DNA from: Gammaproteobacteria bacterium
GTDB taxonomy: Bacteria; Pseudomonadota; Gammaproteobacteria; J113
Assembly (NCBI GenBank): GCA_003694425.1
Contig: RFJX01000297.1
Coordinates: 1-14,627 of the forward strand
Direction: 5' to 3'
DNA: 14,627 nucleotides
Shown piece after piece: positions 867 to 10,865 of this stretch (its first letter is position 1; each line of letters begins with the position of its first letter). Under the pieces are notes generated by a model. It saw only the letters and a list, made by a program, of their open reading frames with translations. It searched no databases and was not told the DNA's origin. Made by a program: the position numbers and the translations under genes.

Positions 867-1733
867 TCAGCGGATGTGGGAGAGGATCCCCTCCAGCTCG
901 TCGAGGCTGTTGTAGTGGATCACCAGCCGCCCCTTGCCCCTGGCGCCGTGCCGGAGCTGGACCCGGGCCCCCAGCTTTTCGCCGAGGTCTGTCTCCAGTC
1001 GGCGGGTATCGGGGTCAGGTGCCGGTTTCTCCGGCGCCGGCGGGGCGCCTTCCTGCTGAAACCTCCGGACCAGGGCCTCGGTCTCGCGCACCGAGAGACC
1101 GCGGGCAATCACCTGATGGGCGGCCTTCACCTGGAGGCTCTCGTCCAGGGGCAGGAGGGCCCGGGCGTGACCCATCTCGATATCGCCCACCTCGAGCATC
1201 CGCTTGACCTCCTCGGTCAGCTCCAGCAGCCGCAGCAGATTGCTGACCGCAGCGCGGGAACGGCCGACCGCCTCGGCCACCTCCTGGTGGGTCAGCTCGA
1301 ATTCCGTGATCAGCCGCTGCAGGGCGAGGGCCTCTTCCAGCGGATTGAGCTCCTCCCGCTGGATGTTCTCGATCAGGGCGATGCTCATCGCCGCCTGGTC
1401 CGGGACCTGCTTGACGATGGCCGGGACCTCGGTGAGCCCCGCGATCTGGGCCGCCCGCCAGCGGCGTTCGCCGGCGATGATCTCGTATCCGTCCTGGCTC
1501 TCCAGGGGACGGACCACGATCGGCTGCACGACCCCCTGGGCGCGGATCGAATCGGCCAGCTCCTGCAGGGTCTCGGAGCGGATGTCGTGGCGCGGCTGGT
1601 AGCGCCCCTGCTGGATCATCTCCACCGGGAGCTGCCTCAGCAGCGGCTCCTCTTCCGGCTCCAGCAGGGTCCCCGCCCCCATTCCCAGCAGGGCGTCGAG
1701 TCCCCGGCCCAGGCCGTGTTTCTTCTTGCTCAT
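867..1733 (-). CDS. parB: Chromosome partitioning protein ParB (CTPase, parS-binding)
   Basis: The 288-residue length is typical of chromosomal ParB. The N-terminus MSKKKHGLGRGLDALLG is the conserved basic segment that contacts ParA. The ParB/Spo0J nuclease-like CTP-binding domain follows, with GERRWRA at 88-94 and ENIQREELNP at 122-131. A helix-turn-helix for parS recognition lies near 148-168, and a C-terminal dimerisation domain spans about 240-288 after a Pro-rich linker (230-242). ParB loads at parS near the origin, spreads as a CTP-dependent clamp and is moved by ParA. I chose the ATG at 1733 because AAGGGGGAG stands just upstream. The open frame reaches 36 codons further, but that extension overlaps the end of parA and looks unlike ParB. 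ParB starts 13 nt after the parA stop, as in an operon. Confidence 0.97.
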   Translation of the reverse strand: MSKKKHGLGRGLDALLGMGAGTLLEPEEEPLLRQLPVEMIQQGRYQPRHDIRSETLQELADSIRAQGVVQPIVVRPLESQDGYEIIAGERRWRAAQIAGLTEVPAIVKQVPDQAAMSIALIENIQREELNPLEEALALQRLITEFELTHQEVAEAVGRSRAAVSNLLRLLELTEEVKRMLEVGDIEMGHARALLPLDESLQVKAAHQVIARGLSVRETEALVRRFQQEGAPPAPEKPAPDPDTRRLETDLGEKLGARVQLRHGARGKGRLVIHYNSLDELEGILSHIR

Positions 1734-1746
1734 CGCTCCCCCTTCA

Positions 1747-2535
1747 TCAGGCATTGGCGCCCTGGCGGGCACCCTCGTCCTTCCGCAGCATCTCTCCGGC
1801 CAGCGCCAGGTAGGCGACGGCGCCGCGTGAGGACTTGTCATACAGCAGCGCCGGCAGGCCGTGGCTGGGCGCCTCCGCCAGGCGGACGTTGCGCGGGATG
1901 ATGGTCTGGTAGACCTTCTCCCCGAAGTGCTTGAGCAGCTGGGCCGAGACCTGGTTGGCCAGATTGTTGCGCGGGTCGTACATGGTGCGCAGGAAGCCCT
2001 CGATTTGCAGCCCGGGATTGAGATAGCGCCGGATCTTCTCGATCGTTTCCAGCAGGGCGGTGAGCCCCTCCAGCGCGTAGTACTCGCACTGGGTCGGGAT
2101 CACCACCGAATCGGCCGCCACCAGGGCGTTGACGGTGAGCATGTTCAGCGCCGGCGGGCAGTCGATGATGATGTAGTCGTAGTCGTCCCGTACCGGGGCC
2201 AGGGCGCCCTTCAGGCGCAGCTCGCGGCCGATCTCCTCCAGCAGTCCGACCTCGGCCCCGGTCAGGTCACTGTTGGACGGCACCAGGTCGTAGCCCACCT
2301 CGTCCAGGGTCAGCGCCACCTCCCGCAGGGGGGTCTCCGCCAGCAGCAGGTCGAAGGCGCTCTTTTCCAGGGAGTTCTTGTTCACCCCACTGCCCATGGT
2401 GGCATTGCCCTGGGGGTCCAGGTCCACCAGCAGCACGCGCCGGCGCGTCGCCGCCAGCGAGGCGGCGAGATTGACGGAGGTGGTGGTCTTGCCGACCCCT
2501 CCCTTCTGGTTGGTCACGGCGAGGACTCGGGCCAT
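1747..2535 (-). CDS. parA: Chromosome partitioning ATPase ParA (Soj family)
   Basis: This 262-residue MinD/ParA-type ATPase has a deviant Walker A KGGVGKTT at 11-18 (signature lysine at 11), LLVDLDPQGN at 35-44 (Walker A') and Walker B IIIDCPP at 122-128. The C-terminal TIIPRNVRLAEAPSHG segment (211-226) is characteristic of chromosomal Soj/ParA. It lacks the N-terminal DNA-binding extension of plasmid type Ia ParA, so it belongs to the small chromosomal class. ATP-bound ParA coats the nucleoid and ParB-parS complexes stimulate its hydrolysis, which moves the origins apart. The gene lies 33 nt after rsmG and 13 nt before parB. The sequence before the ATG has no clear Shine-Dalgarno, so translation may depend on coupling to rsmG. 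Confidence 0.98.
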   Translation of the reverse strand: MARVLAVTNQKGGVGKTTTSVNLAASLAATRRRVLLVDLDPQGNATMGSGVNKNSLEKSAFDLLLAETPLREVALTLDEVGYDLVPSNSDLTGAEVGLLEEIGRELRLKGALAPVRDDYDYIIIDCPPALNMLTVNALVAADSVVIPTQCEYYALEGLTALLETIEKIRRYLNPGLQIEGFLRTMYDPRNNLANQVSAQLLKHFGEKVYQTIIPRNVRLAEAPSHGLPALLYDKSSRGAVAYLALAGEMLRKDEGARQGANA

Positions 2536-2568
2536 GGTCGCGTATGGTCAGCGGAGCAGAGAGGGCTA

Positions 2569-3204
2569 TTATGTCACAGCGGCGCCGGGCGCCGGCAAGG
2601 GGCGCAGGAGCAGCAGCCGGCGGCCGCTGCCGTCGGGGTCGGGCAACTCCCGCTCCAGCCGGTAGCCCTCCGCCCCGGTAGCGGCACCGGGCCCTGTCAT
2701 GGCCAGCAGCAGTCCCCCCGCCGGGAGCAGCGGCCGGCACAGCCGCAGCAGCGCGGGCAGGGAGGCGAAGGCGCGGGCCAGAAGGGTGTCGAAGGGGGCC
2801 CCGGGGCGATAGCGTTCGACCCGGGCACGCACCACGGTGACATTTTTCAGTCCCAGCTCCAGCTTCACCTGGGTCAGGAAGCGGGTGCGCTTGCCGCGGG
2901 CGTCGAGCAGGGTGTAGGCACGCTGCGGATCGGCGATGGCCAGCACCATCCCGGGGACCCCGGCGCCGCTGCCCACGTCCAGCACTCGCCCCCCCTCGAT
3001 CAGGGGCAGCAACCGCAGGCTCTCGAGCAGGTGGCGGCGGACCATCTCCCCCGGATCGGTGATGGCAGTGAGGTTGTAGGCCCGGTTCCAGCGCCGCAGC
3101 AGCGCCAGATAGTCCAGCAACAGCCGCTGCCGCTCCGGTGGAACCGCCAGCCCCTCCGCCGCGACGGCCCCGGCCAGCAGATCGGCAGGATCGTTTCTCA
3201 CCAC
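2569..3204 (-). CDS. rsmG: 16S rRNA (guanine527-N7)-methyltransferase RsmG (GidB)
   Basis: The 211 residues match the RsmG length (about 207 in E. coli). Features in order are the N-terminal helices with LLRRWNRAYNLTAITDP (35-51), SAM motif I VLDVGSGAGVPG (74-85), LLDARGKRTRFL (99-110) and ARAFASL (143-149). The enzyme adds the N7 methyl group to G527 in the 530 loop of 16S rRNA; in other species its loss gives low-level streptomycin resistance. The start is odd. The only codons that fit the family's N-terminus are a tandem GTG GTG at 3204-3199, and these lie inside the terminal arm of the interspersed repeat, with no good Shine-Dalgarno upstream. Alignment to E. coli RsmG from memory puts the family start within a few residues of this point. 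It leads the rsmG-parA-parB unit. Confidence 0.95.
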   Translation of the reverse strand: MVRNDPADLLAGAVAAEGLAVPPERQRLLLDYLALLRRWNRAYNLTAITDPGEMVRRHLLESLRLLPLIEGGRVLDVGSGAGVPGMVLAIADPQRAYTLLDARGKRTRFLTQVKLELGLKNVTVVRARVERYRPGAPFDTLLARAFASLPALLRLCRPLLPAGGLLLAMTGPGAATGAEGYRLERELPDPDGSGRRLLLLRPLPAPGAAVT

Positions 3205-3407
3205 AGAGACACGGAGGTCACAGAGATCTCAAGTGCGAATTCAAAACGAGCCCGGCGCCAGTCACCATCCCTGCGGCCGAATATACCGGCCACCGGCTTG
3301 ATAAAACAACGCGGACGGAGGCATTTCGCCCGGGCTCGGGAGACATCTCTTGCCGGGCGCCACGAGCAAACCGTCCTCTCCGTGACCTCCGTGTCTCTGT
3401 GGTGAGA
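3196..3407. repeat. Interspersed inverted-repeat element, copy 1 (mnmG-rsmG gap)
   Basis: Two 31-bp arms, 3196-3226 and 3377-3407, are reverse complements with one mismatch; the core reads CACCACAGAGACACGGAGG. They enclose 150 bp of unrelated sequence. Translated, the arms give HHRDTEVTE or VTSVSLW, short peptides I associate with a repeat scattered through many bacterial genomes. The element begins 4 nt after the mnmG stop codon and runs into the first codons of rsmG, so it fills the whole gap. No transposase is encoded, so it would be a MITE- or REP-like non-autonomous element. Confidence 0.85.
3280..3309 (-). promoter_or_regulatory. Candidate sigma70 promoter for rsmG-parA-parB inside the repeat element
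   Basis: On the minus strand TTGTTT (3309-3304) is followed after 18 nt by TATATT (3285-3280), which is five of six to the -10 consensus; the -35 box matches only TTG. Transcription would begin near 3273, about 70 nt before the rsmG GTG. The AT-rich patch stands out in GC-rich surroundings. This is a visual match only. Confidence 0.4.
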
Positions 3408-3411
3408 GGAA

Positions 3412-5301
3412 TCATGCCGCATGGCCCCGGCGCCGGAGGTGGACCAGCAGGAGGGAGATGGCGGCCGGCGTGATGCCGCTGATGCGGGCCGCCTGGCCGA
3501 GGGTCGCTGGACGGTATTCGCTCAGCTTCTGCACCACCTCGGCCGAGAGTCCGCGCACCCTGCGATAGTCGAGATCGGGGGGCAGCGGGGTCTCTTCATG
3601 GCGGCGGTTGCGTTCGATTTCGGCCCGCTGGCGCTCGATGTAGCCGGCGTAGCGGGCCTGGATCGCCACCTGCTCTGCGACCTCCGGGTCCGTCACTCCG
3701 GGCCCGGCGCCGGGCAGGCGCATCAGGGCCTCGTACGCCACGCCGGGACGGGCCAGCAGCTCCGAGAGGCGCTGTTCCCGGGCCAGCGGCCCGCCCAGCA
3801 CCTCGAGCTGCACTGCCTCGGGCAGGTCCGCGGGCCGGACCCACGTATCCCGCAGCCGCTCGCCTTCACGTGCTATCGCCTCCCGCTTGCGCTCGAAGGC
3901 CTCCCAGCGGGCCTCGTCGATCAGGCCCAGCTCCCGGGCCTTAGGCGTGAGGCGCAGGTCGGCGTTGTCCTCGCGCAGCTGCAGGCGATACTCGGCGCGG
4001 CTGGTGAACATGCGGTAGGGTTCGCGGGTGCCGCGCGTGACCAGGTCATCCACCAGCACCCCCAGGTAGGCCTCGTCGCGCCGCGGGGTCCAGGGCGCCT
4101 CGCCGCGCACGGCGAGGACGGCGTTGACCCCCGCCAGCAGGCCCTGGGCGGCCGCCTCCTCATAGCCGGTGGTGCCATTGATCTGTCCGGCGAAGAAGAG
4201 CCCGGCCAGAGGGCGCGTCTCCAGGGTGGCATTCAGTCCCCGGGGGTCGAAGAAATCGTATTCGATTGCATAGCCGGGCCGGGTCAGGTGGGCCCGCCCG
4301 AAGCCGGGGAGGGTGCGCACCAGTTCCACCTGGACCTCGAACGGCAGACTGGTCGAGATCCCGTTGGGATAGACCTCACGGGTCTGGAGTCCCTCCGGCT
4401 CGACGAAGACCTGGTGCCGCTCCCGATCGGCGAAGCGCACCACCTTGTCCTCCACCGAGGGGCAGTAGCGGGGGCCGGTCCCGTCGATGGCCCCGCTGTA
4501 GACGGGCGAGCGGTCGAGGGCGGCGCGGATGATCTCGTGGGTGCGGGCGCAGGTCCAGGTGATGTGGCAGGGCACCTGCCGTGGGCGCCGTGGCGGCTCG
4601 CCGGCGAAGGAGAAGCGCGGCGGTGGCCGGTCCCCCTGCTGCACCTCCAGCTTCGAATAGTCGATGGTGCGCCCGTCGATCCGCGGCGGGGTTCCGGTCT
4701 TGAGCCGGCCCACCTCGAAGGGCAGCTCGCGCAGGCGGGCCGCGAGCCGGTTCGCGGGCCGGTCACCCGCTCGTCCGCCGGCGTAATTGACCTCGCCGAT
4801 GTGAATCACCCCGCCGAGGAAGGTGCCCACGGTGAGAACCACGGCGCGGGCGCGGAACTTCAGTCCGGCCCGGGTAACCACCCCGGTGACCCGCTCCCCC
4901 TCCACGATCAGGTCGTCGACCGACTGCTGGAACAGGCTCAGGCCCGGCTGCGCGTCGAGGGCGCTGCGGACCGCCTGGCGATAGAGCGAGCGGTCGATCT
5001 GGGCGCGGGTCGCGCGGACCGCCGGCCCCTTGCTGGCGTTGAGGGTGCGGAACTGGATCCCGCAGGCGTCGGCGGCGCGGCCCATCATCCCGCCGAGGGC
5101 ATCGATCTCCCGCACCAGGTGGCCCTTGCCGATCCCGCCGATGGCGGGATTGCAGGACATCGCCCCGATGGTATCCAGGTTGTCGGTCAGCAGCAGCGTG
5201 CGCGCACCCATGCGGGCAGCCACCATGGCCGCCTCGCAGCCGGCGTGCCCGCCGCCCACCACGATGACTTCATAGGAATCGGTATGCTCCATGGCGGTCA
5301 T
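3412..5301 (-). CDS. mnmG: tRNA uridine-34 5-carboxymethylaminomethyl modification enzyme MnmG (GidA)
   Basis: The product has 629 residues from the chosen ATG, the same length as E. coli MnmG. It has the FAD dinucleotide fold with [12 protein letters not shown] (14-25) and [14 protein letters not shown] (48-61). The two conserved cysteines are Cys50 in SCNPAIGG and Cys280 in RYCPSVEDK, together with [16 protein letters not shown] and [18 protein letters not shown]. The C-terminal tRNA-binding helical domain ends in [15 protein letters not shown] and [18 protein letters not shown]. With MnmE it installs cmnm5U at tRNA position 34, which tunes decoding of split-box codons. The ATG at 5301 has GGGG 8 nt upstream. 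An ATG three codons later (5292) is possible, while the longer reading from a GTG at 5349 uses repeat-arm sequence. mnmE is not next to it. Confidence 0.97.
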
Positions 5302-8159: not shown

Positions 8160-8669
8160 ATGAAAAGAAACACCAAGGGGATCGCATTTGCCTCACTGCT
8201 GATCCTGCTGCTGGCAGGCTGCAGCAGCGCCACCAAGAACCAGCCGCCGCCTCCGGCCGAAGAACCCGTGGCGATGCCGGAGCCGCAGACCTATGACTTC
8301 CCCGTACTGTCCAGCCAGCTGCCGCCGGACAGCTTCGTCCTCCAGGGGGTCCATTTCGACACCGACAGCGCGGAGCTCAAACCCGAATCCATCGCCATCC
8401 TGGACGAGGCGGCCGAGGCCATCAGGAGCCATCCGGACACCCGCTGGGTCGTGGCCGGCCATACCGACAGCCGGGATACCGACGAGCACAACATGAAGCT
8501 CTCCCAGGCAAGGGCCCAGGCGGTGTACGACTACCTGGTGTCCAGGGGGGTCTCTCCCTCCCAGCTGGAGGTACAGTACTTCGGCGAGGACATGCTCTAT
8601 GCCGAAGAGCGCAGCCCGGAGGCGATGGCCCTGAACCGCCGTGTCGAGATTGTCCGGGTCAAGGACTGA
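8160..8669 (+). CDS. OmpA-family peptidoglycan-associated outer-membrane lipoprotein
   Basis: The 169-residue precursor has a lipoprotein signal (MKRNTKG, then a hydrophobic stretch, LLAGC) with the lipidated Cys at 21. Ser at +2 argues for outer-membrane rather than inner-membrane retention. A short Pro-rich tether (28-48) leads to an OmpA C-terminal domain (about 58-167) with GVHFDTDSAELKPES, GHTDSRDTDEHNMKLSQARA (Asp103 and Arg118 are the expected diaminopimelate contacts) and NRRVEI near the end. It should link the outer membrane non-covalently to peptidoglycan, like Pal. It is not called pal because the Tol genes are absent. It has a strong promoter and ribosome binding site, and an intrinsic terminator follows 42 nt after its stop. 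It may be expressed as an abundant monocistronic message with occasional read-through. Confidence 0.92.
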   Translation: MKRNTKGIAFASLLILLLAGCSSATKNQPPPPAEEPVAMPEPQTYDFPVLSSQLPPDSFVLQGVHFDTDSAELKPESIAILDEAAEAIRSHPDTRWVVAGHTDSRDTDEHNMKLSQARAQAVYDYLVSRGVSPSQLEVQYFGEDMLYAEERSPEAMALNRRVEIVRVKD

Positions 8670-8684
8670 AATCCGCAAGACGAC

Positions 8685-8700
8685 CTGCCGTAGCCGGCAG
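8685..8700 (+). other. Small stem-loop between lipoprotein stop and terminator
   Basis: CTGCCG (8685-8690) pairs perfectly with CGGCAG (8695-8700) across a TAGC loop. It lacks a T-tract and lies 11 nt before the larger terminator hairpin. It could be a processing or stability element, or could compete in folding with flanking GGCC sequences. Confidence 0.4.
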
Positions 8701-8711
8701 TGGTCCGGCCT

Positions 8712-8750
8712 GAAAGGAGCGTCAGCAGCCATGCTGCTGGCGCTTTTTTT
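8712..8750 (+). terminator. Intrinsic terminator overlapping the start of the next gene
   Basis: The core stem is 11 bp: 8719-8729 pairs with 8733-8743 (one G-U pair), around a CAT loop. Seven Ts follow at 8744-8750 and can pair back to the AAAGGA at 8713-8718. By structure this is a canonical Rho-independent terminator for the lipoprotein gene. The left arm contains the AAAGGAG ribosome binding site, the loop contains the AT of the start codon, and the right arm plus T-tract are the first signal-peptide codons of the downstream gene. Confidence 0.85.
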
Positions 8751-9432
8751 CGCCCTCCCCGCAGCCTCGGAGGAACCCCTGAAGGGGCCGCTCGGCGCCC
8801 CGGCCGCCCCGGCCTACAGCATCGGAGAGGACGGCTCCGTCTCCCTGCGGATCTGCTTCAATTCCTCCTGTCGGCGGACCGAGTGGCTACGCTTCACGGC
8901 AGACGAGGTGGCGCAGGTCACCAGCCTGCTCGAGCTTTGTCCTTCCCCCGATCTCCGCTCACGCCTGCAACGCCTGCGCATCGCCGTCTGGCAGATGGAG
9001 CGACTGGCCGGGCTCCATGAGCCCCTGCTCGCCAACGACCGCGAGGTCAACGACCGGGACATCGCCCTCGACGGCCATACCGACTGTGTCGACAACGCGA
9101 CCAATACCACTACCTACCTGAGCATCCTGAAGGACCTGGGGAAACTGCCCGGCTGGAGGGTGGGAGAGCCGCGGGTGCGCGACCCGCTGGATTTCAACCA
9201 GGTACACTGGACCGCGATGGTGGTCGACGAGCAGACCGGAGCGGAGTGGAGCGTGGATTCATGGTTCCGGCCCAACGGACACCTCCCCTTCGTCCTGCCG
9301 CTTCGGGCCTGGAAGGAGGGGGCGCGGGGCTGGGCCCCGCCCTATGCGAGCCTGAATCCCTACCCCCGATACAGGGAGTTGCTCTGTCCGCGGGAGGGAT
9401 TGGCTGAGGGCCGGGTGTCCCTGTCGCGATGA
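8731..9432 (+). CDS. Secreted protein with predicted transglutaminase-like Cys-His-Asp triad
   Basis: From the ATG at 8731 the product has 233 residues with a signal sequence (MLLALFFALPAASEE, cleavage probably near 13). I do not know this gene by name. Three motifs fall in the order and spacing of the transglutaminase/cysteine-peptidase fold: DCVDNATNT with Cys119, VHWTAMVV with His159, and WSVDSWF with Asp176 in the next strand. Other cysteines (42, 47, 70, 219) could form disulfides. The signal n-region has no Lys or Arg, so initiation at an upstream GTG (8641) or TTG (8650) overlapping the lipoprotein gene is possible and would give a longer basic n-region. The stop overlaps the next start by 4 nt, so the two products probably work together. 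The enzymatic role is a prediction. Confidence 0.75.
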   Translation: MLLALFFALPAASEEPLKGPLGAPAAPAYSIGEDGSVSLRICFNSSCRRTEWLRFTADEVAQVTSLLELCPSPDLRSRLQRLRIAVWQMERLAGLHEPLLANDREVNDRDIALDGHTDCVDNATNTTTYLSILKDLGKLPGWRVGEPRVRDPLDFNQVHWTAMVVDEQTGAEWSVDSWFRPNGHLPFVLPLRAWKEGARGWAPPYASLNPYPRYRELLCPREGLAEGRVSLSR

Positions 9433-10865
9433 CCGGTTGGCTCCTGGCCGCACCCGACGACCGTGCGGGAACCTGCCGGATATTCCTGCGCCTGCTGGCC
9501 CTGATCTATCTCTGTGCCTTCGCCTCTCTCGCGGTCCAGATCGACGGCCTGGTCGGACCCGAGGGGATCCTTCCATACGGTGAGCTGCTGGAGGGCGCCT
9601 GGCGGCAGGAGGGGTGGAAGGCACTGTTGCTTCTGCCAGGGGTGTTCTGGATCGATGCCTCTGGCACGGTCCTGACCGCGACCGCCATCGCGGGTGCTCT
9701 CTGCTCGCTGGCATGGCTGCTTGGCCGCTTCGAACGCGCGGCCGCCGTGCTCTGCTTCGCGCTCTACCTGTCGCTGTTCCACGCCGGGCAGATCTTCCTC
9801 AGCTTCCAGTGGGACACCCTGCTGCTGGAGGCGGGCTTTCTGGCCATCTTCCTCACCTTCGGCGCCAGCAGGCTGCTTCTGCTGCTGTTCGAGTGGCTGC
9901 TGTTCCGCTTCCGCTTCATGTCGGGAGTGGCCAAGCTGGCCTCGGGTGACCCGTCCTGGCGCGACCTCTCGGTCCTGGACCACTATTTCGAGACCCAGCC
10001 GCTGCCGCACCTCGGCTCCTGGTACGCCCATCACCTGCCGCACTGGCTGCATTCCTTCGGCACCGGCTTCACCCTCTTCACCGAGCTGGTCGTGCCCTTC
10101 CTGATCTTCCTGCCCAGGCCCTGGCGCATCACCGCGGCGCTCATCACCATCTTCATGCAGCTGCTGATCCTGGCCACCAGCAACCACGCCTTCGTCAACC
10201 TGCTGGTGATCGTGCTGTGCCTGCTGCTGCTGGACGACCGGTTCCTGCGGCGCTGGTTGCGCTGGCTCCCCGCAAGGCCGGTCCCGGTCGCCTCCGGCCC
10301 CCTGCACGGCCTGCTGCTCTCCCTCTCCGGGTTGCTGATCGTGGTGGTCAGTATCTCTGCCTATGTCACCTTCGTCGGCGGGCCGGAGCCGCCCCGCCCG
10401 CTGGCGCGGACCATCCTCGTCGCCCAGAGCTGGGGGCTGGGCAACATCTATCACATCTTCCCGACCATGCAGACCACGCGCCAGGAGCTGGTGATTGAGG
10501 GGTCCAGCGACGGCAGGAACTGGCAGCCCTACGAGTTCCGCTACAAGCCGGGGGACCCGATGCGCCGGCCCGCCTTCGTGGTGCCCCATCACCCGCGCCT
10601 GGACTGGCTGATGTGGTTCGTGCCGACCCAGGACCCGCGCCAGCAGTACTGGTTCAACCGCTTCCTGGCCCGCCTGCGCACCGGCTCGCAGCCGGTCCTC
10701 GGCCTGCTGGAGCACAACCCCTTCCCCGACCGTCCTCCCCGCTTCCTGCGGGTGACGGCCTGGGACTACCGCTTCACCACGCCCGCCGAGCGGGCACGGA
10801 CGGGGGCGTGGTGGGTCCGGCACCGGCTGGGGAGGTTCCCCTACGTGCCGCCGCGGCGGCCCTGA
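9429..10865 (+). CDS. Lipase maturation factor (LMF1/LMF2) family membrane protein
   Basis: This 478-residue polytopic protein has hydrophobic helices at about 18-36, 64-74, 82-99, 104-116, 131-158, 214-228, 233-250, 254-268 and 293-314. Family signatures are FQWDTLLLEAGFLAIFL (127-143), RFRFMSGVAKLASGDPSWRD (160-179), HYFETQPLPHLGSWYAHHLP (185-204), the soluble-domain YEFRYKPGDP (368-377) and VVPHHPRLDWLMWF (384-397). Vertebrate LMF1 is needed for lipase folding in the ER; the function of bacterial members is unsettled, so a role in folding an exported enzyme is inference. The start codon overlaps the preceding stop as ATGA, which indicates translational coupling to the secreted triad protein. 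It converges on the 146-residue gene with a 24-nt gap and no clear terminator. Confidence 0.9.
   Translation: MTGWLLAAPDDRAGTCRIFLRLLALIYLCAFASLAVQIDGLVGPEGILPYGELLEGAWRQEGWKALLLLPGVFWIDASGTVLTATAIAGALCSLAWLLGRFERAAAVLCFALYLSLFHAGQIFLSFQWDTLLLEAGFLAIFLTFGASRLLLLLFEWLLFRFRFMSGVAKLASGDPSWRDLSVLDHYFETQPLPHLGSWYAHHLPHWLHSFGTGFTLFTELVVPFLIFLPRPWRITAALITIFMQLLILATSNHAFVNLLVIVLCLLLLDDRFLRRWLRWLPARPVPVASGPLHGLLLSLSGLLIVVVSISAYVTFVGGPEPPRPLARTILVAQSWGLGNIYHIFPTMQTTRQELVIEGSSDGRNWQPYEFRYKPGDPMRRPAFVVPHHPRLDWLMWFVPTQDPRQQYWFNRFLARLRTGSQPVLGLLEHNPFPDRPPRFLRVTAWDYRFTTPAERARTGAWWVRHRLGRFPYVPPRRP

Follow-up and report, generated by a model that had tools for sequence, protein, structure and literature searches.

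A putative leaky intrinsic terminator built into the 5′ end of the following gene in a gammaproteobacterial contig

In the stretch of gammaproteobacterial DNA analysed here (the window, 14,627 nt), a GC-rich hairpin and T-tract at 8712–8750 on the + strand share their bases with the presumptive start of the next gene, and on balance we favour the reading that they form a constitutive, leaky intrinsic terminator that has fused with the 5′ part of that gene. The basis of this reading is the sequence, predicted fold, position, rarity and codon improbability of the element; from these we infer termination, its efficiency and the dependence of the downstream genes on read-through. RNA polymerase leaving the upstream lipoprotein gene would form the GC hairpin and T-tract and would mostly release there. 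In the minority of messages that read through, an 18-bp hairpin would still cover AAAGGAG and the ATG, and translation, if begun at 8731, would be further reduced by it. The outcome would be a fixed high:low ratio between an envelope lipoprotein and a secreted Cys/His/Asp protein together with a lipase maturation factor (LMF), with no need for a switch. The terminator probably keeps the output of the downstream gene low.

The hairpin and the genes around it

The transcript that the hairpin would end is that of an OmpA-family lipoprotein gene of the Pal/YiaD type (8160–8669, + strand; Pfam PF00691, E 1.1e-23), whose product matched the YiaD and Pal models of NCBIfam with scores under the curated cut-offs and whose stop codon is TGA 8667–8669. 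The downstream gene encodes a secreted protein with invariant Cys, His and Asp residues. The initial annotation started it at ATG 8731 (ORF 8731–9432, + strand); its frame is open upstream to GTG 8641, with TTG 8650 also in frame. A protein search returned 156 matches for this protein, the window's own entry included, and no Pfam or NCBIfam family was found for it at E 0.001. The gene shares an ATGA overlap with the LMF gene (9429–10865, + strand; Pfam PF06762, E 2.5e-52, and PF25179, E 1.6e-44). Lipoprotein gene, hairpin and downstream gene are all on the + strand, which places the stem-loop between co-directional adjacent genes, and a consensus scan found no promoter-like site on the + strand between 8160 and 8731.

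Direct reading of the bases agreed with the initial annotation of an 11-bp stem, a 3-nt loop and seven Ts after the lipoprotein gene. The left arm of the GC stem (GCGTCAGCAGC, 8719–8729) and the right arm (GCTGCTGGCGC, 8733–8743) form 10 Watson–Crick pairs and one G.U wobble (T8722–G8740), and the T7 tract (8744–8750) abuts the stem with no gap. On folding, this stem-loop, with 8 GC pairs and the 3-nt loop CAT (8730–8732), had an energy of −19.6 kcal/mol. A GC-rich stem, a short loop and a U-tract directly after the stem, the features of an intrinsic terminator, are thus all present. The candidate start codon straddles the loop as had been claimed, its A and T (8731–8732) lying in the loop and its G in the stem. 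This G, the following Leu-Leu-Ala codons and the first base of CTT make up the right arm, and the T7 tract lies within Leu-Phe-Phe codons, so that the proposed dual use of these bases was borne out by the sequence.

RNA folding added seven pairs between GAAAGGA (8712–8718) and the T-tract. The RNA stem is predicted to extend from 11 to 18 bp because the AAAGGAG region pairs with the T-tract; in the minimum free energy (MFE) structure, 8712–8729 is paired with 8733–8750 and AAAGGAG lies opposite the T-tract. The MFE of the 66 nt from 8700 to 8765 was −37.1 kcal/mol, compared with −22.4 (sd 2.9) for shuffled sequences (z −5.0; 0/200 as stable). AAAGGAG (8713–8719) is a Shine–Dalgarno-like sequence 11 nt 5′ of ATG 8731. 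It had been assigned to the left arm, which is correct for its last G; the remainder lies outside the GC stem and pairs with the T-tract. As a putative ribosome site it is paired inside the 18-bp terminator fold and, according to the model, would be fully covered once the T-tract has left the polymerase. It could alternatively serve as the A-rich side of the hairpin. The distance from the lipoprotein stop codon is 49 nt to the GC stem and 42 nt to the base of the extended hairpin.

Rarity of the hairpin and T-run

Background frequencies were taken from the window and from a sample of its genome, 60 of 301 contigs (392,492 bases in the 60). Runs of at least six Ts on either strand numbered 20 in these 407 kb, the hairpin's own included. 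In the 60 sampled contigs, hairpins of −19 kcal/mol or lower ended at 462 of 776,584 positions, and the chance of finding one at a given T-run was <0.2% with three offsets allowed. Scaling up the 19 T-runs counted in 392 kb gives about 100 for the whole genome, at which number about 0.2 such cases are expected by chance. By stem-loop energy, the hairpin ranked fourth among the 103 hairpin-plus-T entries in the sample and window, a few of which overlap. Five of the nine other entries at −13 kcal/mol or lower lie 16–47 nt after a long open frame (L044, L077, L089 and both strands of one L099 element); of the remaining four, L042 lies at 81 nt and there was no open frame for L085 and L043 (twice). 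The long-open-frame rule is crude and accepts any frame, and in the window it selected, instead of the lipoprotein gene, an open frame lying 5 nt upstream. A simple consensus terminator scan of the window listed three terminator-like sites, compared with a shuffle mean of 4.0, and did not list the hairpin; in our reading it was missed because the stem rule of the scan runs on into the T-tract. Since the chance of a strong hairpin abutting a T-run is <0.2%, these predictions are best explained by an intrinsic terminator.

The same architecture was sought elsewhere. The pattern AGGAG-ATG-T6 had matches in 193 of 274 class genomes. Thirty pattern loci were fetched, and 16 of them have an ATG that opens at least 100 codons; the strongest fold among these 16 was −9.9 kcal/mol and none reached −15 kcal/mol. 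Strong hairpins were present at two of the 30 (L109 and L113), where the ATGs open 50 and 22 codons, and these look like plain terminators. Among the matches listed and read by eye, G142:C14:35961–35991 looks hairpin-like over its ATG. In the window's own genome, a looser pattern gave two matches, the second of which (on C298) has no ORF of at least 60 aa from its ATG.

The start codon and the coding constraint

The choice of ATG 8731 as the start of the downstream gene has AAAGGAG at 11 nt upstream in its favour and the homologues against it. The nearest homologue, P0002 (73% identity), begins MSGAPAAWLLALFF where the window reads (L)KGASAAMLLALFF; it has Trp at the position of the window's ATG, and its Met1 aligns with CTG 8710–8712 (+ strand), an alternative or ancestral start position. 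A hydrophobic core was recognized by our rule in 93 of 119 examined homologues. Lys or Arg precedes this core in 83 of the 93, and the n-region is of two residues or fewer in 5, whereas a protein begun at 8731 would lack an n-region altogether. The premise of a start at 8731 is therefore weakened, because P0002 has Trp there and a K/R-bearing n-region is found in 83/93 homologues. The length of the protein collection entry for the window, P0001 (217 aa), places its first residue at CTG 8779, within the protein; this start drops the signal peptide and corresponds to neither 8731 nor 8710.

These data bear on a tentative alternative, somewhat unlikely in our estimate, in which translation starts upstream, at CTG 8710 or at TTG 8650 or GTG 8641 overlapping the end of the lipoprotein gene, and the hairpin is an ORF-internal terminator within signal-peptide codons. 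A ribosome following the polymerase could then block the hairpin, so that translation permits transcription. Besides the Trp and Met positions of P0002 and the n-region counts, the similarity of the residues encoded by the left arm (GASAA/GAPAA) argues for an upstream start. However, no Shine–Dalgarno-like sequence was seen by eye 5′ of 8641, 8650 or 8710, whereas AAAGGAG precedes 8731, and the annotated n-region of P0002 itself lacks Lys and Arg, as in 10 of the 93 homologues. An upstream start is compatible with a leaky terminator, since it alters the start and leaves the terminator in place.

Codon enumeration with the residues of P0002 showed that 5 of the 11 stem pairs are forced, 6 are allowed and none is forbidden. 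Between the window and P0002, the Ser to Pro change replaces a U.G pair by C-G, and the change from ATG to TGG affects loop bases only. In this block, 10 of 12 residues are conserved in P0002, compared with about 73% overall, and its compatibility with the stem comes largely from conserved residues. A longest contig of 58,913 bases is recorded for P0002 and also for P0122 (88%), a homologue of the lipoprotein; taking the two as one record on this ground, we consider that the lipoprotein/downstream-gene neighbourhood is probably kept there. For the closest LMF homologue, P0242 (84%), the contig recorded is another one, of 8,611 bases. P0010, a homologue of the downstream protein, and P0245, an LMF homologue, come from the same source (longest contig 49,505 bases), and both genes are probably linked in that other lineage.

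A single-protein scan detected no close orthologous DNA, and there was no near relative among 94 relatives and 369 class genomes; the taxonomic order of the window is represented by one genome in the set searched. A profile search of genome contigs (alignment A2) found nine distinct distant loci at about 50% protein identity, with the best of them, G210/L022 (57% to P0002), counted once with L017, which has the same length and gene layout. None of the nine has the hairpin over the start; in two, L011 and L017, a hairpin followed by a T-rich stretch lies immediately before the ORF. No LMF match was found in the available flanks of the nine loci, several of which are short. An OmpA-like lipoprotein gene adjoins the gene in two of the nine (L018 and L019) in divergent orientation, and the gene pair is therefore not generally one operon. 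Two Chromatiaceae loci carry inverted repeats near the homologue: a perfect 14-bp repeat at L011 1429–1464, 5′ of the homologue start (−24.0 kcal/mol), and one seen by eye at L014 upstream of the ORF start at 3932, which is absent from the hairpin scan.

The cost of encoding the element was estimated from random synonymous codings of GASAAMLLALFF with the codon usage of sampled ORFs of at least 250 codons, in which CTT makes up 10% of Leu codons and TTT 12% of Phe codons. Among 400,000 codings, the stem occurred in 1,196 and T7 in 4,862, and all 11 pairs together with T7 occurred in 16; this test is post hoc and presumes that the left arm is coding, and it otherwise applies to the right side only. 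Within that limit, the result fits the suggestion of the initial annotation that selection acted jointly on the coding and termination signals. It can be taken further, to a reading in which selection holds the signal-peptide codons to the terminator while the start codon moves; the start would lie upstream in P0002 and in the loop in the window. We regard this reading, including its moving start, as unlikely. If it were true, translation start and transcription stop would be one 39-nt element, neither being changeable alone.

Structure at start codons was compared with 274 sampled ORFs, 59 of which have a Shine–Dalgarno-like start by a crude rule. The local fold at these 59 starts averaged −9.2 kcal/mol (sd 4.9), compared with −26.7 kcal/mol at the candidate start in the window, and one of the 59 (L083) was stabler. 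At L083 (G000:C42), in the same genome and on the minus strand, a 14-bp palindrome covers a purine-rich site and the GTG start of ORF 1070–3808, which from its sequence looks phosphoenolpyruvate-carboxylase-like.

An origin of the hairpin by chance, through complementarity between the Ala and Leu codons in a GC-rich signal-peptide region and a fortuitous T-run after them with no termination function, is improbable. Such an origin is consistent with the several pairs that the residues alone force (5/11 for those of P0002) and with the one sampled start that has a stabler local fold, although L083 has no T-tract, and the roughly 0.2 coincidences expected genome-wide leave some room for it. The 16 of 400,000 codings, the <0.2% for a hairpin at a T-run and the location soon after a stop codon argue against it.

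Regulation and comparison with known systems

The proposal of an attenuator or a combined transcription/translation gate was not supported. It is improbable that, under some condition, a factor, an RNA or a ribosome event unfolds the hairpin so that transcription and translation are released at once. A single hairpin covers both signals, as in the pT181 precedent (PMC5435934), and as long as the right arm is missing the left arm can pair weakly upstream (mean paired probability 0.41–0.46, hence not free), but this pairing is predicted to gain 3.5–6.4 kcal/mol, whereas losing the terminator would cost 20.8–23.7 kcal/mol, and the attenuator was rejected on this comparison and the lack of a strong competing fold. 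Folding revealed no strong competing antiterminator structure upstream, and an Rfam search returned no family at gathering score. A separate hairpin at 8685–8700 (CTGCCG..CGGCAG) coexists with the terminator in predicted folds, and a ribosome finishing the lipoprotein gene stops 42 nt short of the base of the extended hairpin. Because the competing pairing is weak and no Rfam family matched, a fixed leaky terminator appears preferable to a switch.

If real, the hairpin would be a compact natural case in which termination, access for the ribosome and the protein sequence make rival demands on the same bases, and it would show how a terminator survives the loss of intergenic space. It is also a warning that annotated starts can be misleading in such genes; a comparable case is RpfB, whose start was re-annotated (PMC6009663). 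The general understanding of termination would be unchanged by it. Our literature search of open-licence papers found no description of a start codon in the loop and stem of a terminator with a signal-peptide-coding T-tract.

The following comparisons draw on the available portions of the cited texts. Internal termination in general is documented in an archaeon (PMC10450193). In E. coli, premature 3′ ends occur near starts, in 5′ UTRs and in ORFs, and one fifth of mapped 3′ ends are predicted to be intrinsic (PMC7815308); the E. coli cases in that portion of the text include no hairpin built on a start codon as in the window. Internal operon terminators of ABC importers in Ruminiclostridium (Clostridia), with long GC stems and paired U-tracts, set transcript ratios (PMC9045158). 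They resemble the window in having an inter-gene stem-loop with high upstream and low downstream transcripts, which were measured there and are inferred here, and they have a lower U content than the window's terminator. The terms 'start codon' and 'ribosome binding site' are absent from the text of that paper, which therefore does not deal with a terminator overlapping the next start. A Bacillus riboswitch exerts opposed control of transcription and translation, and the U-tail of its terminator can pair just after the start codon (PMC11218506). In the leader-peptide terminator of B. subtilis rplJL, the Shine–Dalgarno sequence of the following ORF lies inside the hairpin, as in the window; that system differs in having a short leader peptide and control by a ribosomal protein complex through an antiterminator and an anti-antiterminator (PMC4538822).

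In the repC attenuator of pT181, one hairpin is both an intrinsic terminator and the cover of an AGGAG ribosome site (PMC5435934). The two systems are alike in that a terminator hairpin hides the ribosome site, a putative one in the window, with a spacing from site to start of 12 nt in pT181 and 11 nt in the window. In pT181, however, the 3′ half of the hairpin contains the site, with the start codon beyond it, whereas the window has its site on the 5′ side, an ATG shared between loop and stem, and a coding T-tract. Control of pT181 by antisense RNA and an antiterminator also contrasts with the window, where no strong antiterminator was found (PMC5435934). By analogy, the window hairpin is a variant of the known hairpins that terminate transcription and hide a ribosome site, and among known systems pT181 comes nearest to it in combining the two functions in a single hairpin.
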